Assembly (NCBI GenBank): GCA_023700245.1 | Contig: JAJPRE010000002.1 | Location: 1 to 34,362, forward strand | Origin: Candidatus Thalassarchaeaceae archaeon | Lineage (GTDB): Archaea > Thermoplasmatota > Poseidoniia > Poseidoniales > Thalassarchaeaceae | Length of the DNA: 34,362 nt | Reading direction: 5' to 3' | Made by a program: the position numbers and the translations under genes | Notes under the pieces: generated by a model | Database searches by the model: none | Seen by the model: the letters and a program-made list of their open reading frames with translations, nothing else | Told to the model about the DNA's origin: nothing | Shown here: in pieces, positions 6,056-34,049 of the stretch | Layout: every line of letters begins with the position of its first letter | Position numbering within the stretch: the stretch's first letter is position 1

Positions 6056-6310
6056 GTGTTAAACCTTTTATTAAGTTGTTTACTTATGATAATTGGTTTC
6101 CAAATTCCAGTTATCTCAATCTATTTGTTCTTTAATAATAATCAATATTTTTTAATAATTTTATTTTGTATTTTTATTGTAATTTCTGGCATATTTATGT
6201 TTAATTACGGGCCAAATGAATTAGCATTTGGCCTCTTTATAGGTTCAGGATGGAAATTATTAAATGAACTTTTAGACTATTTATTTAATCTCAATCATCA
6301 AAAAAATTGA
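6056..6310 (+). CDS. Small hypothetical membrane protein
   Basis: An 84-residue protein that I do not recognise. It is very hydrophobic, with two or three membrane helices: residues 3-25, 28-48 and a weaker one near 56-75. The start would be the GTG at 6056, four bases after the aminotransferase stop, so it would be co-transcribed with that gene. Its end overlaps the last 20 bases of the convergent membrane-protein gene on the other strand. The hydrophobic pattern and tight spacing favour a real gene, but the GTG start without a clear ribosome-binding site keeps this uncertain. Confidence 0.5.
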   Translation: MLNLLLSCLLMIIGFQIPVISIYLFFNNNQYFLIILFCIFIVISGIFMFNYGPNELAFGLFIGSGWKLLNELLDYLFNLNHQKN

Positions 6311-7352
6311 AAGGAGAATCAACCTCAGTAGTCACTTCTTCATCAATATTTTTATCGAACTTATTTTCTAAATCTTTACTTGGAGCAGTCAAACTCTTCG
6401 ATCTTAAATTTTCTAATTTTTGCTCTTGACCTATCATCCAATCAGGAATTTCCCTGTAACCATTTATGACTGAAATGGTCGTAAAAGTAGCCATCGGCAA
6501 TACGGATATTGCTACAATATAGTCTAAAATTGCGGTATCAGGTATTGTTGCAGCAGGTGCAATTGTTTGGATAATCATCTTTTCTAATTGTATTTCATGC
6601 CATTGCTCATAGTTTATCCCCAACCAACCAAGAGAAAATGCAAGTACAGTTCTCGCAAAAATCCAGTAGAGAATAAGAGGCAATATGGACGATACTCTAC
6701 CGAATTTACCCAAAAAAATCCTAAATATATATGCCAAACCTACTAATTTTTCAGATATAATTGGATGCAATCTTATTGATAGCCACAATGCAATCAAATA
6801 TCCTACCATTCCTAGTTGAAAAGCTGAATCAGGCTTGACATAACTTTCGGGCATACCTTCCATTATAATTAGGGGAACTGCAATCAAAATTACTTGCATA
6901 GGAACTGCCAATAATTGTAAACCACCATGAATCGTCATAATGTCATAATCCTCATTTTTCATTTTTAAGTAGACCAATCTACTGAGTCTTCCATATGGAC
7001 TTGAATACGCAGATAATCTAGCCCTATCTATTAATTCTGGATCATTTCTTCTGACGCTTAAGAATAATGCTGCTAAAATACCTCCTTTATTTGATATATA
7101 AAAAGGTGTGAAATTACCCATAATTAATGCTAAGGTTAATGATATAATTCCATAGGTAACTCCTGCAATTGAGACCCATCCCAGCATTTCTGTTCTTATT
7201 CCAATACTTGCATTACTGATGTCTATATCTATCAGGTAGGCAATGGCAATTAATAATGTTGGAACTACAGTCACTTGGCAAATCATGATTATAATCAAAT
7301 GGAATCTACTTAGCATTTTTCTGCTATTATCCATGTGCCTACGTATCCTCAT
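6291..7352 (-). CDS. Multi-pass membrane protein of unknown function
   Basis: A 353-residue protein that I do not recognise. About seven or eight hydrophobic segments alternate with short loops: one near residues 18-42 (after a basic start, MRIRRHMDNSRKMLSRFH), then pairs around 53-85, 145-170, 178-195, 220-245 and 275-300. A charged, cytoplasm-like C-terminal tail of about 50 residues follows (EQKLENLRSKS...). No transporter signature or catalytic motif was found. A second in-frame ATG at residue 7 is an alternative start. A TATA-like element lies about 28 bases upstream on this strand, so the mRNA is probably leaderless. It converges with the small gene at 6056-6310 and overlaps its end. 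Confidence 0.8.
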   Translation of the reverse strand: MRIRRHMDNSRKMLSRFHLIIIMICQVTVVPTLLIAIAYLIDIDISNASIGIRTEMLGWVSIAGVTYGIISLTLALIMGNFTPFYISNKGGILAALFLSVRRNDPELIDRARLSAYSSPYGRLSRLVYLKMKNEDYDIMTIHGGLQLLAVPMQVILIAVPLIIMEGMPESYVKPDSAFQLGMVGYLIALWLSIRLHPIISEKLVGLAYIFRIFLGKFGRVSSILPLILYWIFARTVLAFSLGWLGINYEQWHEIQLEKMIIQTIAPAATIPDTAILDYIVAISVLPMATFTTISVINGYREIPDWMIGQEQKLENLRSKSLTAPSKDLENKFDKNIDEEVTTEVDSPFNFFDD

Positions 7353-7430: not shown

Positions 7431-7488
7431 TCAATTAAACTTTGACCCCATACTTTCATACACAAATGTTCTCCCCAAAAGTTTGTCT

Positions 7489-10400
7489 ATGCGTGGCCTG
7501 TATTCTTATATCGTCGTCGTTTTGTTTGTGCTGCTTAGTGCGTCACCGATGGTGATGTTTTCAAATTATGACGATTCTCCTGAATTTAAGGTAGGGCCAA
7601 AGAGTGATGCTGTAGATTTTAGTGTATTAGAAATAGAATTAGGCAACTCATCCAACATACCTATGCAATGGGAACAACCTGATTCTAGTTTCCAAGAGTA
7701 CTTAATAAAAGGAGATGCAATACAAATCAACGTCACGTTCATTCAAAACGGTTTCACTCCTACGCAAGTCACTGCAAATGCAACATTACAAGTTTGGCAT
7801 CCGATAGGATTTCTGATTAAGAAATGGGATTTTAATGTCACATTATCTAGCTCACAATCTGCTAGATTAGATTTTATATGGACTCCTAATACTGCTCATA
7901 GTGCATTATCAGGAGATGGTTTTCTCAGCGGAGGGATGATTATCGTCGGTTTGGTCGATGCTGGCTTACAAGATGGGGACAATACTAATGATAGAGTAGA
8001 AAGATCTGTTCCGGTTGCCGCTTGGTCAGATGATTTAGATAATGGATTTTGTGGTGATGAAGGTAATGAAGGTAAATATTGTACTAATATTCCACAAGGA
8101 TATGGCAGGCCTACTTGGTTTGGTGCTGGATATGAGTCAAATGGGATGACCTTGGATGGAGATTTCCCTACTGGTACTTGGAGGATGGATAATGCATCTA
8201 GCGCAGATGGGGAATGGCACTGGAAAGTATCAGGAGATGACAGCAATAGGTATGCCTCTAATCGTTATGACCGGTTACATTGGGGTTGGGTAACCACCAA
8301 TAATCAGGATGGGTGTGCCGATGGAGTTTGGGGTGATGGATATGCACATGGACTAGGTCAAGGAGATTTCTCTTCTGGCTTATCTTCTCTGTATTCTCAG
8401 TATCTTTGCAAAGTCAAGATTAAAAGTCCGAATTTTTATTCGATGCAAATAGTTACCAAAGCATGGGGTAATATGGACTCTGGTGATTCAATTTTACTTG
8501 AAACTGATTCGGGATATGATCAAGAGTATTACAATTATACTGCAATAAATTTATCCTCAAATGAAGGCGATTGGAACAGATTGATTTGGAATGTATCTAA
8601 TTTACATCAATCTGGTGGTTTTACATTATCATTTTTGTTTAATTCCGATGGCTCAGATGCGAATGAAGGAATTCATATTGATTCATTTCTAATTTTTGGA
8701 ATTGAGAGATTTACTGAATATACTCTTAATGCAGTTTGCAATGATCCTCTTCCAAATTCTTATATCGTTTTAGCAGCCGATTCAAATCCACCTTCGTTGC
8801 ATTGCCGTGTATTTAACAAAGGATATATAGATATAACTCTTAGATATTTTACTACTTTATCTAATCAATCATGGATGTACCAATATCCATTAAGAATTGA
8901 CTCAAATAACCCTATTGATCATGATAACTTTGTAGTTAGTAAAGTTATAAAAGCACGAACAATTACCGATGTCTGGTTTAATTTATCAATACCTGATGGG
9001 ACCCTTGTACAAGAATTAGATTGGATTGTAGATATCAATGATGGTGTTTTAAATAATTCCAAATATTCACTTGTTCTGCCAGTTAAGGTTGATCCAACTT
9101 ATTCCATAACACTAACTCCTGATAAATTATCTAATCCAGCTGCTACTTTATTCCCGGGGGATAAGGCAAATATAACTATGAATCTAAAAAACAATGGGAA
9201 TCAATTAGCAACTTGGAACCTAGGTGGTACTTTTGACACATCTGAATGGCCTTCAGAAAATATTCAATGGTATGATTCAGCAACAGGTGAAGCAATATCT
9301 CTTCTTAATTCTTCTATTAATGAAGAATTTATATTAAATGCAGAAATTACAGCTCCTGAAGGTTTGGCCCCTGGAATATATACTCTTACTCTTATTGCCA
9401 ATGGGCGTGCACCTGCTACTTTTCAATCAGAAACCGTCCTATATATTGAGGTACCAGTTTTCCATAATTTGGTAGTCGCACCTATTTCAAATTCATTAAT
9501 TGCTCCTGCTAATGGCTATGGTAAAATTATCGAAATATTCCTCATCAATAATGGAAATACTGAGGAGTCTTTTGATATTTCAGTTACAACAGATAATTGG
9601 CGATTACTAGCTTCAACAAGTGCAACATTGACGCCTGGTATACCCTCGAATGGTGGAGATACTTCAATATCTCTTCTACTTCCAATGCCCGAGGGGATAC
9701 TAAATGGAACTTATAGAATTACAGTACATGCTGCAAGTACGCTGAATCCAGAATATGTATCTAGCGCAAATATTTACCTAACGGTGCCGGTTACTAATTT
9801 AGTAGAAATTCCGGATTTGGATATGACTGAAGAAATATTTAGTGCAGGTAGTGATGACAGGACTTTAAGATGGGAAATATGGAATCGTGGGAATGTTGCA
9901 GACTCTTTTGACATTTCATTCTTGCATACATCAGATGTTTTTACTTCTGCACAGGGATTAAATGAGGGAAGGACCCCATATATATCTCCAGGGTCATCAT
10001 ATAATTTATCTGTCAGTTATTCATTTGGCGAGGACGCAGATGGGACACGGACTATCACTCTAGGTGCAAGTAGCGTCGAATCTTCTAAGGCAGGAGGTGA
10101 TGCATCTGGAAATGGGCAAGCTCTGTTTAATGTTGGAACTGTTGGTTGGCTACGAGCGCTTTCTCCTCCAATTTCATCAGACGCAATGTCAATAACCGAG
10201 TCGGGCGAATCTTACTCATTAGAATATACTATATTGAGCATGCACCCTACGGATGATCAACAAATACGTGCTGAAGTTGAACTCGAAAATCAATATACAG
10301 TATATAGCGCTAGGGTTGATGAAGAGGACAGGGATTTCGTTCTTAAAGCTGGAGAATCAAGGACAGTAACTATTTTCTTGGATGTTAGAGAAGAGGATCT

Positions 10401-10926
10401 AGAAAATTTGAATAAGGATCAAGTTGATTTCGAAGTCACGCTAGTGGTAACCAGTGAATTAGATGTTTCGAAACGAACAACTACGATATCATTGACCAAA
10501 CCAGTGCCCTTAGAGGCAGGGCCTGATGCAGGAGATTATGTTTGGATTACTGGCAATATTGTCTTAATCATCATTGGTACAGTGGTATTCCTTGGTGTAT
10601 CCGTCATGACATTCAGAATTGTTAGAAAAGCTAATTCACCTTTAGAAGAAATTTCTACATTAGATGGCTATAATATGACTATGGATGCATGGGATGATGA
10701 AACTAGTACGAAAATACCATTACCTTCTGCAGATATGATTGCTAATTCTATGTTCGGAGGCTCGGAGGAAATATTCAAGCAACTATCACCGGACCTTTCA
10801 ATTTTAGAAAATCTAGAAACTAATGATTACCCCCCAATTCCTGAATCAGGATTACCTGCTGGCTGGTCTTTAGAGCAATGGAATCACTATGGTCAAAAAT
10901 GGCTAGATGAAAGAAACTTGGAATAA
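7489..10926 (+). CDS. Giant secreted surface protein with Ig/CARDB-like repeats, C-terminal membrane anchor and cytoplasmic tail
   Basis: A 1145-residue protein probably displayed on the cell surface; its ligand is unknown. I chose the ATG at 7489 (MRGLYSYIVVVLFVLL), which opens straight into a signal peptide; a TTG two codons earlier is also in frame. After the signal come an Ig-like domain (about 35-160) and a Trp/Asp-rich jelly-roll or MAM-like region with six or more cysteines (about 185-420). Several repeats of about 110 residues follow (540-1010), of the CARDB/NEW3 kind, each with an N.GN...F..S pattern such as NNGNTEESFDIS and NRGNVADSFDIS. One membrane helix lies near 1017-1041, and the last ~104 residues form an acidic intracellular tail ending in GLPAGWSLEQWNHYGQKWLD. 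Family names are inferred from pattern only. Confidence 0.88.
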   Translation: MRGLYSYIVVVLFVLLSASPMVMFSNYDDSPEFKVGPKSDAVDFSVLEIELGNSSNIPMQWEQPDSSFQEYLIKGDAIQINVTFIQNGFTPTQVTANATLQVWHPIGFLIKKWDFNVTLSSSQSARLDFIWTPNTAHSALSGDGFLSGGMIIVGLVDAGLQDGDNTNDRVERSVPVAAWSDDLDNGFCGDEGNEGKYCTNIPQGYGRPTWFGAGYESNGMTLDGDFPTGTWRMDNASSADGEWHWKVSGDDSNRYASNRYDRLHWGWVTTNNQDGCADGVWGDGYAHGLGQGDFSSGLSSLYSQYLCKVKIKSPNFYSMQIVTKAWGNMDSGDSILLETDSGYDQEYYNYTAINLSSNEGDWNRLIWNVSNLHQSGGFTLSFLFNSDGSDANEGIHIDSFLIFGIERFTEYTLNAVCNDPLPNSYIVLAADSNPPSLHCRVFNKGYIDITLRYFTTLSNQSWMYQYPLRIDSNNPIDHDNFVVSKVIKARTITDVWFNLSIPDGTLVQELDWIVDINDGVLNNSKYSLVLPVKVDPTYSITLTPDKLSNPAATLFPGDKANITMNLKNNGNQLATWNLGGTFDTSEWPSENIQWYDSATGEAISLLNSSINEEFILNAEITAPEGLAPGIYTLTLIANGRAPATFQSETVLYIEVPVFHNLVVAPISNSLIAPANGYGKIIEIFLINNGNTEESFDISVTTDNWRLLASTSATLTPGIPSNGGDTSISLLLPMPEGILNGTYRITVHAASTLNPEYVSSANIYLTVPVTNLVEIPDLDMTEEIFSAGSDDRTLRWEIWNRGNVADSFDISFLHTSDVFTSAQGLNEGRTPYISPGSSYNLSVSYSFGEDADGTRTITLGASSVESSKAGGDASGNGQALFNVGTVGWLRALSPPISSDAMSITESGESYSLEYTILSMHPTDDQQIRAEVELENQYTVYSARVDEEDRDFVLKAGESRTVTIFLDVREEDLENLNKDQVDFEVTLVVTSELDVSKRTTTISLTKPVPLEAGPDAGDYVWITGNIVLIIIGTVVFLGVSVMTFRIVRKANSPLEEISTLDGYNMTMDAWDDETSTKIPLPSADMIANSMFGGSEEIFKQLSPDLSILENLETNDYPPIPESGLPAGWSLEQWNHYGQKWLDERNLE

Positions 10927-30193: not shown

Positions 30194-30215
30194 AAATAAA
30201 GGAGTGTAATGTATT

Positions 30216-32138
30216 ATGGTAAATCGAAGGCCCAATGTTATCGGTCTTGTTATTATGTCAACCATTTATTGGGGTGCATTATACTACTGGCTAAGATTTG
30301 ATTTATCTTCTAACGTTGCCGAAGTTCAAACTGAAGCATTATTATTGTTCAGTCTTTCTATTCCTTATGTTGCATTCGTTATGTGGGGTGCTATGAAGGA
30401 TTTACCTGAAGGAATATCTAATATCCCTTATATCGGTAAATACTTTAAAGCATTTATTTGGATAATTATTCTGGGGATATTCGCATATTGGGCATGGCGA
30501 GATAGTAGCCTAGTTGGCTACCTGTTTGTTGCTATAGCATTACTTGGGTTAGCAGTAGGCTTAGCACTCGCTTGTCTTTTGTACACTGGCGAAGAAGCAA
30601 GCAGATTATATGGTCTAAAGAGATTAGTCGACGTATATCCAAGTATAACTAAACCAGAAGGACATGTTAGATTTAATCAAAAATTATGGACTACAACCCT
30701 AGTTCTAATAATATATTTCGGAATGACAAATGTTATGATTTATGGACTTTCTGATACTACATTAGATATTTTTTCTTCATTTAGATCAATAATGGCTGGA
30801 GCATCTGGCTCTATAATGCATTTAGGAATTGGACCCATAGTTACTGGTTCAATTATAATGCAATTGTTCTCTGGGGCAAAAATAATTCAACTGGATTTAC
30901 AGGATTCTGCTGATAAACAATTGTATCAGGGAGTACAAAAAATATTAGTATTGATAATGATACCAATTGAAGCAATTCCGCAAGTATATGGATTCTTGGA
31001 TCCTTCAGAGACTGTAATATTAGATTATGGCGTGGGCTGGGCAAATACATTAATTGTATCCCAATTATTCATTGGATCGCTTCTTGTATTCCTTCTCGAT
31101 GAATTAGTAAGCAAGTGGGGTATAGGAAGCGGAATTTCATTATTCATTGCTGCAGGAGTAGCTCAATCTACATTTGTAGGCACACTTTCCCCATTGCCGA
31201 CAATTGAAGGAGCATCTCTATCAATAGATAATCCTCCTTCGGGTACTCTTCCTATGATTTTCTATGTCTTAAGGACCGCATCCAATCAACAATTAGTGGC
31301 AGATAACGGGTTTGAACTAATGTTACTAAATCATGCCAATCCTATTGCCGCTTTAGTTTCATCAATAATTGTATTCATAGTAGTGGGATATGCAGAATCA
31401 AGTAAATTAGAATTGCCACTGACACATGGTAAAGTAAGAGGGCATAGAGGCCAATATCCAATAAGACTAGTTTACGCAAGCAATATTCCAGTGATACTTA
31501 TGGCTGCATTATTGGCCAATGTAAATATGTTCACGCTATTATTCTGGAGCCATCCCGTTTTACGTACAACTCCTATAATTGGTAAGGATGGATGGGGAAG
31601 CAAGGCCGAATGGTTCGGTGCGTACAAACCAGGTGCGACTACTCCTCATGATGGATTCGCATGGTATGCCTCCATGGTAAATGGGGTGGGCGACTGGCTC
31701 ATGCCTCTACTCAATCAAACCGGGGATGTTTATGGCCACAGTTTAACTGAAATTATGCTCCACGTCTTTATCTACGTATTCTTTATGACAGCCGGTTCTA
31801 CTGTATTCGCTAAATTTTGGATCGAGACTACAAATATGGGGGCAAAAGATGTTGCAAAGCAAATAGAAAGAACTGGAATGCAGATCCCTGGCTTCCGAAA
31901 GAATCCAGTTGTACTGGAGAGAATCTTAGAGAGATATATCCCACCAGTTACTTTGTTCTCCGGCGCCTTCGTAGGACTTCTGGCTTCGGGTGCCGATCTG
32001 CTAGGGACAGTGGGTAACGCGACGGGTACAGGGCTTCTATTGGCAGTTGGAATAATACTAAGGACATACGAACAGATTCAAAAGGAGCAAGCTATGGAAA
32101 TGCATCCTGTATTAAGAGAATTCTTTGGCGCTGACTAA
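30216..32138 (+). CDS. secY: Preprotein translocase SecY with extra N-terminal four-helix domain
   Basis: The pore of the Sec translocon. It has 640 residues; typical archaeal SecY has about 430-490. The canonical protein begins near residue 138 with VDVYPSITKPEGHVRFNQKLW. Before it lie four hydrophobic segments (about 8-27, 41-59, 77-95, 100-122) that are not part of standard SecY. The core has GIGPIVTGSIIMQLFSGAK, GIGSGISLFIAAGV, GHRGQYPIRLVYASNIPVIL, and the end SGADLLGTVGNATGTGLLLAVGIILRTYEQI. A loop of about 70 residues (450-510) between two late helices is also longer than in methanogens. GGAG lies 14-17 bases before the start. It is the last gene of the operon; adenylate kinase, common next in other archaea, is absent. 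Confidence 0.95.
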   Translation: MVNRRPNVIGLVIMSTIYWGALYYWLRFDLSSNVAEVQTEALLLFSLSIPYVAFVMWGAMKDLPEGISNIPYIGKYFKAFIWIIILGIFAYWAWRDSSLVGYLFVAIALLGLAVGLALACLLYTGEEASRLYGLKRLVDVYPSITKPEGHVRFNQKLWTTTLVLIIYFGMTNVMIYGLSDTTLDIFSSFRSIMAGASGSIMHLGIGPIVTGSIIMQLFSGAKIIQLDLQDSADKQLYQGVQKILVLIMIPIEAIPQVYGFLDPSETVILDYGVGWANTLIVSQLFIGSLLVFLLDELVSKWGIGSGISLFIAAGVAQSTFVGTLSPLPTIEGASLSIDNPPSGTLPMIFYVLRTASNQQLVADNGFELMLLNHANPIAALVSSIIVFIVVGYAESSKLELPLTHGKVRGHRGQYPIRLVYASNIPVILMAALLANVNMFTLLFWSHPVLRTTPIIGKDGWGSKAEWFGAYKPGATTPHDGFAWYASMVNGVGDWLMPLLNQTGDVYGHSLTEIMLHVFIYVFFMTAGSTVFAKFWIETTNMGAKDVAKQIERTGMQIPGFRKNPVVLERILERYIPPVTLFSGAFVGLLASGADLLGTVGNATGTGLLLAVGIILRTYEQIQKEQAMEMHPVLREFFGAD

Positions 32139-32578
32139 TCTTACTCTACTGTCTAAGTTGTATCAATCCTCATTTTTAATGTATTTATGTGCCTAACTGA
32201 CATGCGTGTTTTCATCCATTTTCGCATGATTGCTAGCAAACTCACAATCAATTTAACTAGTCATATTCATAAACTAAAGTCAGCCCGTCGGGCCGTTGCG
32301 TCACACTGGCGTTGAAGATTGAGTGCCTCGGTACTATGATTTCTTCATTCAAGTGAGATGCAGCCGAGGAAGTGCGGCCACGAACTTAGTTCGTGGTTGA
32401 GGAGGTTAACCACAATTATGACTTGACTCCTGAAATAGGGAGTGCAAGACAAAGCAGATTATTTTTCATTCAATTCAAAATGATGGTGATTCTGCGCCAA
32501 TAACCAATAAGTGACAACTTTAGTGACCATTAATAAACACAAACTTCCGAAAGGATCAGTGATTTTGCTTCACGCGAA
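32139..32578 (+). promoter_or_regulatory. Intergenic region: end of the ribosomal operon and promoter/leader of 16S rRNA
   Basis: No protein gene is seen in these 440 bases. A T-rich stretch after secY (around 32170-32185) could end the operon transcript. An AT-rich TATA-like element at about 32264-32275 would start the rRNA precursor near 32300. The leader is structured. CCTCGG (32326-32331) can pair with CCGAGG (32364-32369). CCACGAACT (32378-32386) is an inverted repeat of AGTTCGTGG (32388-32396). TGAGGAGGTTAA (32398-32409) is the exact complement of TTAACCTCCTCA (34111-34122) behind the 16S gene, so a processing stem is likely. Nothing resembling SRP RNA or RNase P RNA was recognised. Confidence 0.6.

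Positions 32579-34049
<1,471 letters not shown>

Follow-up and report, generated by a model that had tools for sequence, protein, structure and literature searches.

SecY is among the few membrane proteins present in all cells; its core is treated as fixed, and its accessory factors are regarded as separate proteins. The locus described here raises the question of whether a SecY protein can carry an additional membrane domain in its own chain, and what such a domain might do. The window (the whole stretch of DNA analysed here, 34,362 nucleotides of contig JAJPRE010000002.1 from a Candidatus Thalassarchaeaceae archaeon) contains a secY gene in which about 137 residues precede the conserved beginning of the protein. 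An earlier note, made from the sequence alone, had proposed that these residues, with four membrane helices, could be a built-in accessory factor. The features of the gene are as follows.

30200–30204, forward strand: Shine-Dalgarno core AGGAG, upstream of the extended ATG start (sequence)
30216–32138, forward strand: secY gene, 640 codons, with four added N-terminal helices and a complete core (open reading frame; Pfam plug and SecY; NF006341)
30216–30626, forward strand: N-terminal extension, residues 1–137, a four-helix membrane domain (hydropathy, AlphaFold2, dN/dS)
30237–30293, forward strand: added helix 1, residues 8–26, with invariant Y18, G20 and W25 (hydropathy, AlphaFold2)
30330–30395, forward strand: added helix 2, residues 39–60 (hydropathy, AlphaFold2, conservation)
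30396–30443, forward strand: conserved loop between helices 2 and 3, predicted to be cytosolic, D62-L-P64 ... G74 (conservation, charges)
30444–30500, forward strand: added helix 3, residues 77–95, with conserved K78, W82 and W92 (AlphaFold2, conservation)
30504–30578, forward strand: added helix 4, residues 97–121, glycine-rich and the best conserved, with G101, V105 and G111 (AlphaFold2, conservation)
30579–30665, forward strand: link and N-terminal peripheral helix of SecY, residues 122–150, SRLYGL..VYPSITKPEGH (alignment; helix at 130–140)
30708–30809, forward strand: SecY TM1/plug region, Pfam Plug_translocon (Pfam)
30810–32069, forward strand: SecY core, Pfam SecY (Pfam; the core of the model resembles Sec61/SecY structures)

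The open reading frame begins with ATG and is unbroken over its 640 amino acids, as the earlier note had read it. The Pfam domains of the archaeal translocon channel are both present, with Plug_translocon at residues 165–198 (PF10559, 4.2e-10) and SecY at residues 199–618 (PF00344, 1.2e-66), and the protein scores above the cut-off of the archaeal SecY equivalog NF006341, in which residue 134 corresponds to model position 7. For residues 1–137, there is no NCBIfam match and no Pfam match that passes its cut-off. Because the solved archaeal SecY proteins align with the window's protein only from residue 134 (residue 10 of Pyrococcus furiosus SecY) or residue 137 (residue 7 of Methanocaldococcus jannaschii SecY), the first 137 residues are extra relative to them. 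Residues 122–150 align as the counterpart of the N-terminus in SecY proteins that have no extension. Hydropathy places four helices in the extension (8–26, 42–60, 72–90, and 103–121), and the AlphaFold2 model likewise has four (8–30, 35–60, 77–95, and 97–121), so that Pfam, NF006341, hydropathy and structure prediction agree with the earlier description of four hydrophobic segments ahead of the conserved SecY start. The SecY of the window's order thus has 14 membrane helices, four added and ten of the core. The protein remains a SecY by virtue of its core, as a variant; ten helices and an N-terminus at the peripheral helix are the usual condition of the family, not its defining trait.

The extension could be spurious if ribosomes in fact initiated close to the canonical start of SecY, with an upstream frame that is open by chance, a reading for which we see hardly any room. 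In the window, there is no in-frame ATG or GTG among codons 60–170, and the sole candidate is a TTG at codon 122 that has no ribosome-binding site, in keeping with the earlier claim that no good start lies near the canonical one. The ribosome-binding site claimed for the long start is likewise borne out, both by the AGGAG at 30200–30204 and by the relatives: among 56 genes from this order, the long start follows a strict Shine-Dalgarno core in 38, whereas control positions show one in 8.0%. What speaks for a shorter product is an in-frame ATG near the canonical position, 29 codons before the junction, in 23 of 56 relatives. However, this codon is a start codon of any kind in 35 of the 56 genes and is never preceded by a Shine-Dalgarno core (0/35), the other 21 genes have no start codon there, the Shine-Dalgarno cores stand at the upstream start, and purifying selection acts on the upstream codons. 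The median dN/dS in close pairs is 0.08 for the extension and 0.025 for the core, and mismatches in the extension are distributed over the three codon positions as 0.42/0.33/0.67. The extension is translated into protein and is under selection, though with less constraint than on the SecY core.

Its distribution was examined across the Thermoplasmatota, as the earlier note had advised for the Poseidoniia and Thermoplasmata. All 87 complete secY reading frames (45 + 42) of the window's family (f1) and the family sister to it (f2) carry the four-helix extension, and the secY fragments that reach the N-terminus have it too. Because the extension is collinear in all 87, an assembly artefact is ruled out. 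Families f1 and f2 are probably two families of Poseidoniales (marine group II), an assignment based in part on f3, the class's third family, whose SecY groups in the tree with named SecY proteins of marine group III. The four-helix extension was seen in no other group. At the same place, eight other Thermoplasmatota families (f3, f6, f11, f20, f24, f27, f33, and f35) have a two-helix extension, among them the named Ferroplasma acidarmanus, Aciduliprofundum/DHVE2, and marine group III. Among the families read, the SecY of f4, f5, f7, f8, f15–f18, f26, f30–f32 and f38 starts at the peripheral helix, as is usual. SecY in this phylum is therefore a variant protein with zero, two or four added helices, and since many families have no extension, it is dispensable in general. 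The statement of the earlier note that SecY has ten helices in all known cases fails because Ferroplasma acidarmanus and Aciduliprofundum bear two more. Some individual genes have peculiarities of their own: in two marine group III genes (L055, L057) the two-helix SecY seems to start at TTG, with no ATG at the conserved start; one secY (G176:C11:10530-12077) has two TAG codons within its frame, which may be read through as pyrrolysine or may reflect a sequence error; and another (G007:C2:257673-259598), in a genome of few contigs, lies in several pieces with frame changes and stops that are probably sequencing errors.

Modeled alone with 50 relatives, the extension forms a four-helix bundle at high confidence (pLDDT 90.7, pTM 0.83). 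The full-length model is of moderate quality (pLDDT 72.7, pTM 0.68), with the extension helices at pLDDT ∼80–87, and it matches SecY/Sec61 structures with the two-halved SecY fold (best TM-scores 0.8–0.87 by target length). That the extension folds as a compact unit is strongly supported by these predictions. Charged residues are unevenly distributed among its loops: D+E is 3.4 vs K+R 0.75 in loop 1, K+R is 2.15 in loop 2, D+E is 1.5 vs K+R 0.28 in loop 3, and K+R is 4.9 at the junction with SecY. These values fit an N-terminus in the cytosol, followed by an acidic loop 1 outside, a conserved and charged loop 2 on the cytosolic side, a short acidic loop 3 outside, and a basic junction in the cytosol. 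A topology with both ends of the domain in the cytosol (N-in/C-in), in register with SecY TM1, is strongly supported. No conserved charged residue occurs inside the added helices except K78, which stands at the start of helix 3 after the conserved loop 2 and lies at the cytosolic edge, and helix 4 holds no charged residue. The invariant G101, V105 and G111, together with the uncharged character of helix 4, fit helix packing rather than a hydrophilic groove.

Several known proteins were considered as the source of this domain. A fused YidC/EMC3, SND3, Sec61beta or SecE was rejected, and a fused EMC6 is considered unsupported, as neither sequence nor fold searches gave a match. No Oxa1 model, PF01956 included, occurred among the families listed (25 of 26 for 50 four-helix members; 25 listed for 22 two-helix members). 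The three-helix bundle with a hydrophilic groove typical of Oxa1 proteins found no counterpart by fold (best E 4.4) or in conserved charged helix residues other than K78. As for an EMC6/OPTI/GET2-like partner, EMC6 (PF07019) matched neither the extension nor anything in 60 genomes of the phylum, with a model that scores below its cut-off even in two matching control archaea. Neither Sec61beta (PF03911) nor SecE (PF00584) was among the matches listed within the extension. The Foldseek comparison of the four-helix part alone that the earlier note had suggested was run against the PDB, and no solved structure matched at E<=0.001 (best E 4.4), including the SND3 fold in entry 9i78. The weak Pfam matches of the extension (Dicistro_VP4, DUF7670, DUF4131, and LiaI-LiaF-TM_PspC) are inconsistent between members and lie below the cut-off where a cut-off was printed, and PDB sequence matches to metabotropic glutamate receptors (E 0.3 and worse) were set aside as hydrophobic chance. 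A standalone homologue of the four-helix part was found neither in the window's own genome nor in 116 genomes of the phylum; since no separate gene resembles it, the domain is not a recent fusion of a recognizable protein. Of the idea of a built-in accessory factor, the conserved built-in membrane domain is well supported, while a YidC-like or EMC6-like identity is not, for want of a sequence or fold match.

How the four-helix and two-helix forms are related was approached through trees and profile comparisons. In a SecY-core tree built without the extension, with a single, long outgroup and deep branches that are not firmly resolved, all four-helix SecY proteins descend from a single origin (SH-aLRT 100), and five changes are needed to account for the states of zero, two and four helices. 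That the four-helix domain arose once, on the stem of the order, is strongly supported. When models were built with one family left out, they scored the two-helix extension of that family at 19–57 bits, compared with 8.5–14 for the best of 900 decoys (SecY core hairpins, and shuffled and reversed extensions). By these scores, the two-helix forms are one family. The two-helix extension may be ancestral, with several losses, or may have been gained more than once; the sequence homology favors one origin.

The tie of the four-helix form to the two-helix one is weak. With the junction included, hhalign pairs them at 98.7%, but this shared stretch is part of SecY itself; without it the value is 72%, with a score of 26.3 vs 16.3 ± 4.0 for block-shuffled profiles (maximum 28.4; z ∼2.5). 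The two-helix model finds its best match on helices 3–4, around a W-x-W-x-D motif, in 37 of 53 extensions, and the top scores of the two-helix HMM on the four-helix form slightly exceed those of all decoys (14.6 vs 10.3 for the best decoy). A search of the phylum with the two-helix model recovered no four-helix SecY at E 0.05. It is suggestive only that helices 3–4 may be the old two-helix extension and helices 1–2 a later addition. Two other derivations were tried and found unconvincing: an internal hairpin duplication of helices 1–2 and 3–4 (hhalign 18.1 vs 13.2 ± 2.6 when shuffled, maximum 19.4), and an equivalence of helices 1–2 with the two-helix form (24.2 vs 22.1 ± 4.1).

We also recorded the surroundings of the gene. 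The 16S rRNA gene lies directly 3′ of secY on the same strand (window 32578–34049), and this order is found at 9 of 10 Poseidoniales loci and at none of four two-helix loci. Three long open reading frames of the window have no Pfam match, at 4–2355 (783 aa), 6291–7352 (353 aa), and 7483–10926 (1147 aa). SecDF was found in many genomes, the window's included.

What might the extension do? On our reading it is no part of the pore and not an Oxa1-type insertase; everything beyond its fold and topology we infer. SecY is translated as one chain from the conserved start, with the four-helix domain ahead of the peripheral helix. The extension runs into this helix (H0), which, as Lewis and Hegde (PMC8675477) show, lies against H4 of the half it belongs to; for the N-terminal half, H4 is TM4. 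With H0 beside TM4 and a link of ∼8 residues (122–129), helix 4 should sit beside the N-terminal half of SecY. In the 1RHZ structure, Sec61beta binds near this place. The domain would then pack outside the pore, near TM1/TM4 and the Sec61beta site, a placement of helix 4 that, like the topology, favors a permanent accessory subunit or docking platform over an element of the gate. A role as accessory factor is plausible. Our best explanation, to which we give about an even chance, is that the extension is a covalently attached accessory subunit that packs against the N-terminal half of SecY outside the pore. Its function would be to stabilize the channel or adjust it, or else to provide a place where partners in membrane-protein biogenesis can dock. 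A bolder version of it is tentative: a stepwise-grown translocon subunit of lineage-specific fold, fused to SecY as a two-helix hairpin in the Thermoplasmatota and enlarged to a four-helix domain in the ocean order, so that these archaea would have a translocon in one chain, equipped with its own docking platform or chaperone for membrane proteins.

The reading nearest to these is that the hairpins serve SecY itself, as early signal anchors for its insertion and topology, or are an ornament, nearly neutral and retained since it was acquired. It is a minority view that we nonetheless take seriously, given that the number of helices varies from zero to four across the phylum while the SecY core is kept, and that the extension evolves faster than the core; retention throughout the order, the invariant positions and the stable predicted bundle argue against pure ornament. 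An active helper, i.e., a fused part that inserts multipass proteins or chaperones them within the membrane in the manner of SND3, YidC/TMCO1 or the PAT complex beside Sec61, seems to us unlikely. The compact four-helix bundle with its conserved cytosolic loop would suit such a function, and SND3 sets a precedent as a small multi-helix insertase of unusual fold beside Sec61 (PMC12572126). Against it stand the empty searches of Pfam and PDB sequences and of the PDB fold library, the SND3 translocon entry among them, and the lack of conserved charged residues inside the helices. A separate YidC-like (EMC3/TMCO1) gene is, moreover, already present in nearly all genomes, including the window's own, which together with the missing sequence and fold matches also tells against a YidC-like origin. 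The YidC-like proteins of Poseidoniales may themselves carry an extension: in G000:C7:16823-17212 and its relatives the frames are ∼300–400 aa, compared with ∼200–235 aa in many relatives.

That the extension makes up for a small subunit, Sec61beta or SecE, that has weakened or diverged is the least probable of these functional readings, and we consider it quite improbable. It draws on the proximity of the proposed position to the Sec61beta site and on Sec61beta itself, which is strongly diverged class-wide (22–30 bits in all Poseidoniia vs 37–66 bits in most of the remaining phylum) and absent at E 0.001 from the window's draft genome and some relatives. However, most Poseidoniia still yield a Sec61beta match, two-helix families such as f24 and f27 have a well-conserved Sec61beta, marine group III combines a weak Sec61beta with only two added helices, and the divergence of SecE keeps it from scoring across most of the phylum, irrespective of the SecY type.

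A covalently attached accessory subunit, as we prefer to read the extension, can be set against known translocons. Reviews describe archaeal SecY as TM1–10 (PMC2910488). We found no description of this N-terminal extension of SecY in the open-access literature that was searched, subscription journals being outside its scope; the two-helix extension at the same place in eight other families is new here. With the SecY of M. jannaschii (1RHZ) and P. furiosus (3MP7), the window's protein shares the complete core, the plug, the SecY Pfam domain and the fold, but it has four more helices, whereas those proteins match from residues 7 and 10 and have no extension. The two-helix Thermoplasmatota SecY has its extension at the same junction (Y-x-G-x-x-S-K/R-L), with both ends cytosolic as in the four-helix form, but only 83–101 residues precede the core instead of about 150, and homology between the two is only suggestive. 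As the two-helix form occurs in cultured Ferroplasma and the Aciduliprofundum group, its role is open to experiment. For annotation, the N-termini of extended forms should not be trimmed to the canonical start.

Among SecY/Sec61-linked biogenesis factors, the Oxa1 superfamily (YidC, EMC3, TMCO1) and EMC6/OPTI offer functional parallels, but the extension has no sequence or fold match to the Oxa1 superfamily. SND3 is likewise a small multi-helix membrane protein beside Sec61 (PMC12572126), and the likeness is one of analogy only: SND3 is encoded by a separate gene and has a hydrophilic groove, and the extension matches it neither in sequence nor in fold. A conserved, built-in domain, present throughout an archaeal order and in smaller form in cultured acidophiles, amounts to a natural experiment on the origins of translocon accessories. 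In this order of abundant ocean archaea, the universal export channel comes with a built-in addition beyond its ten-helix core.
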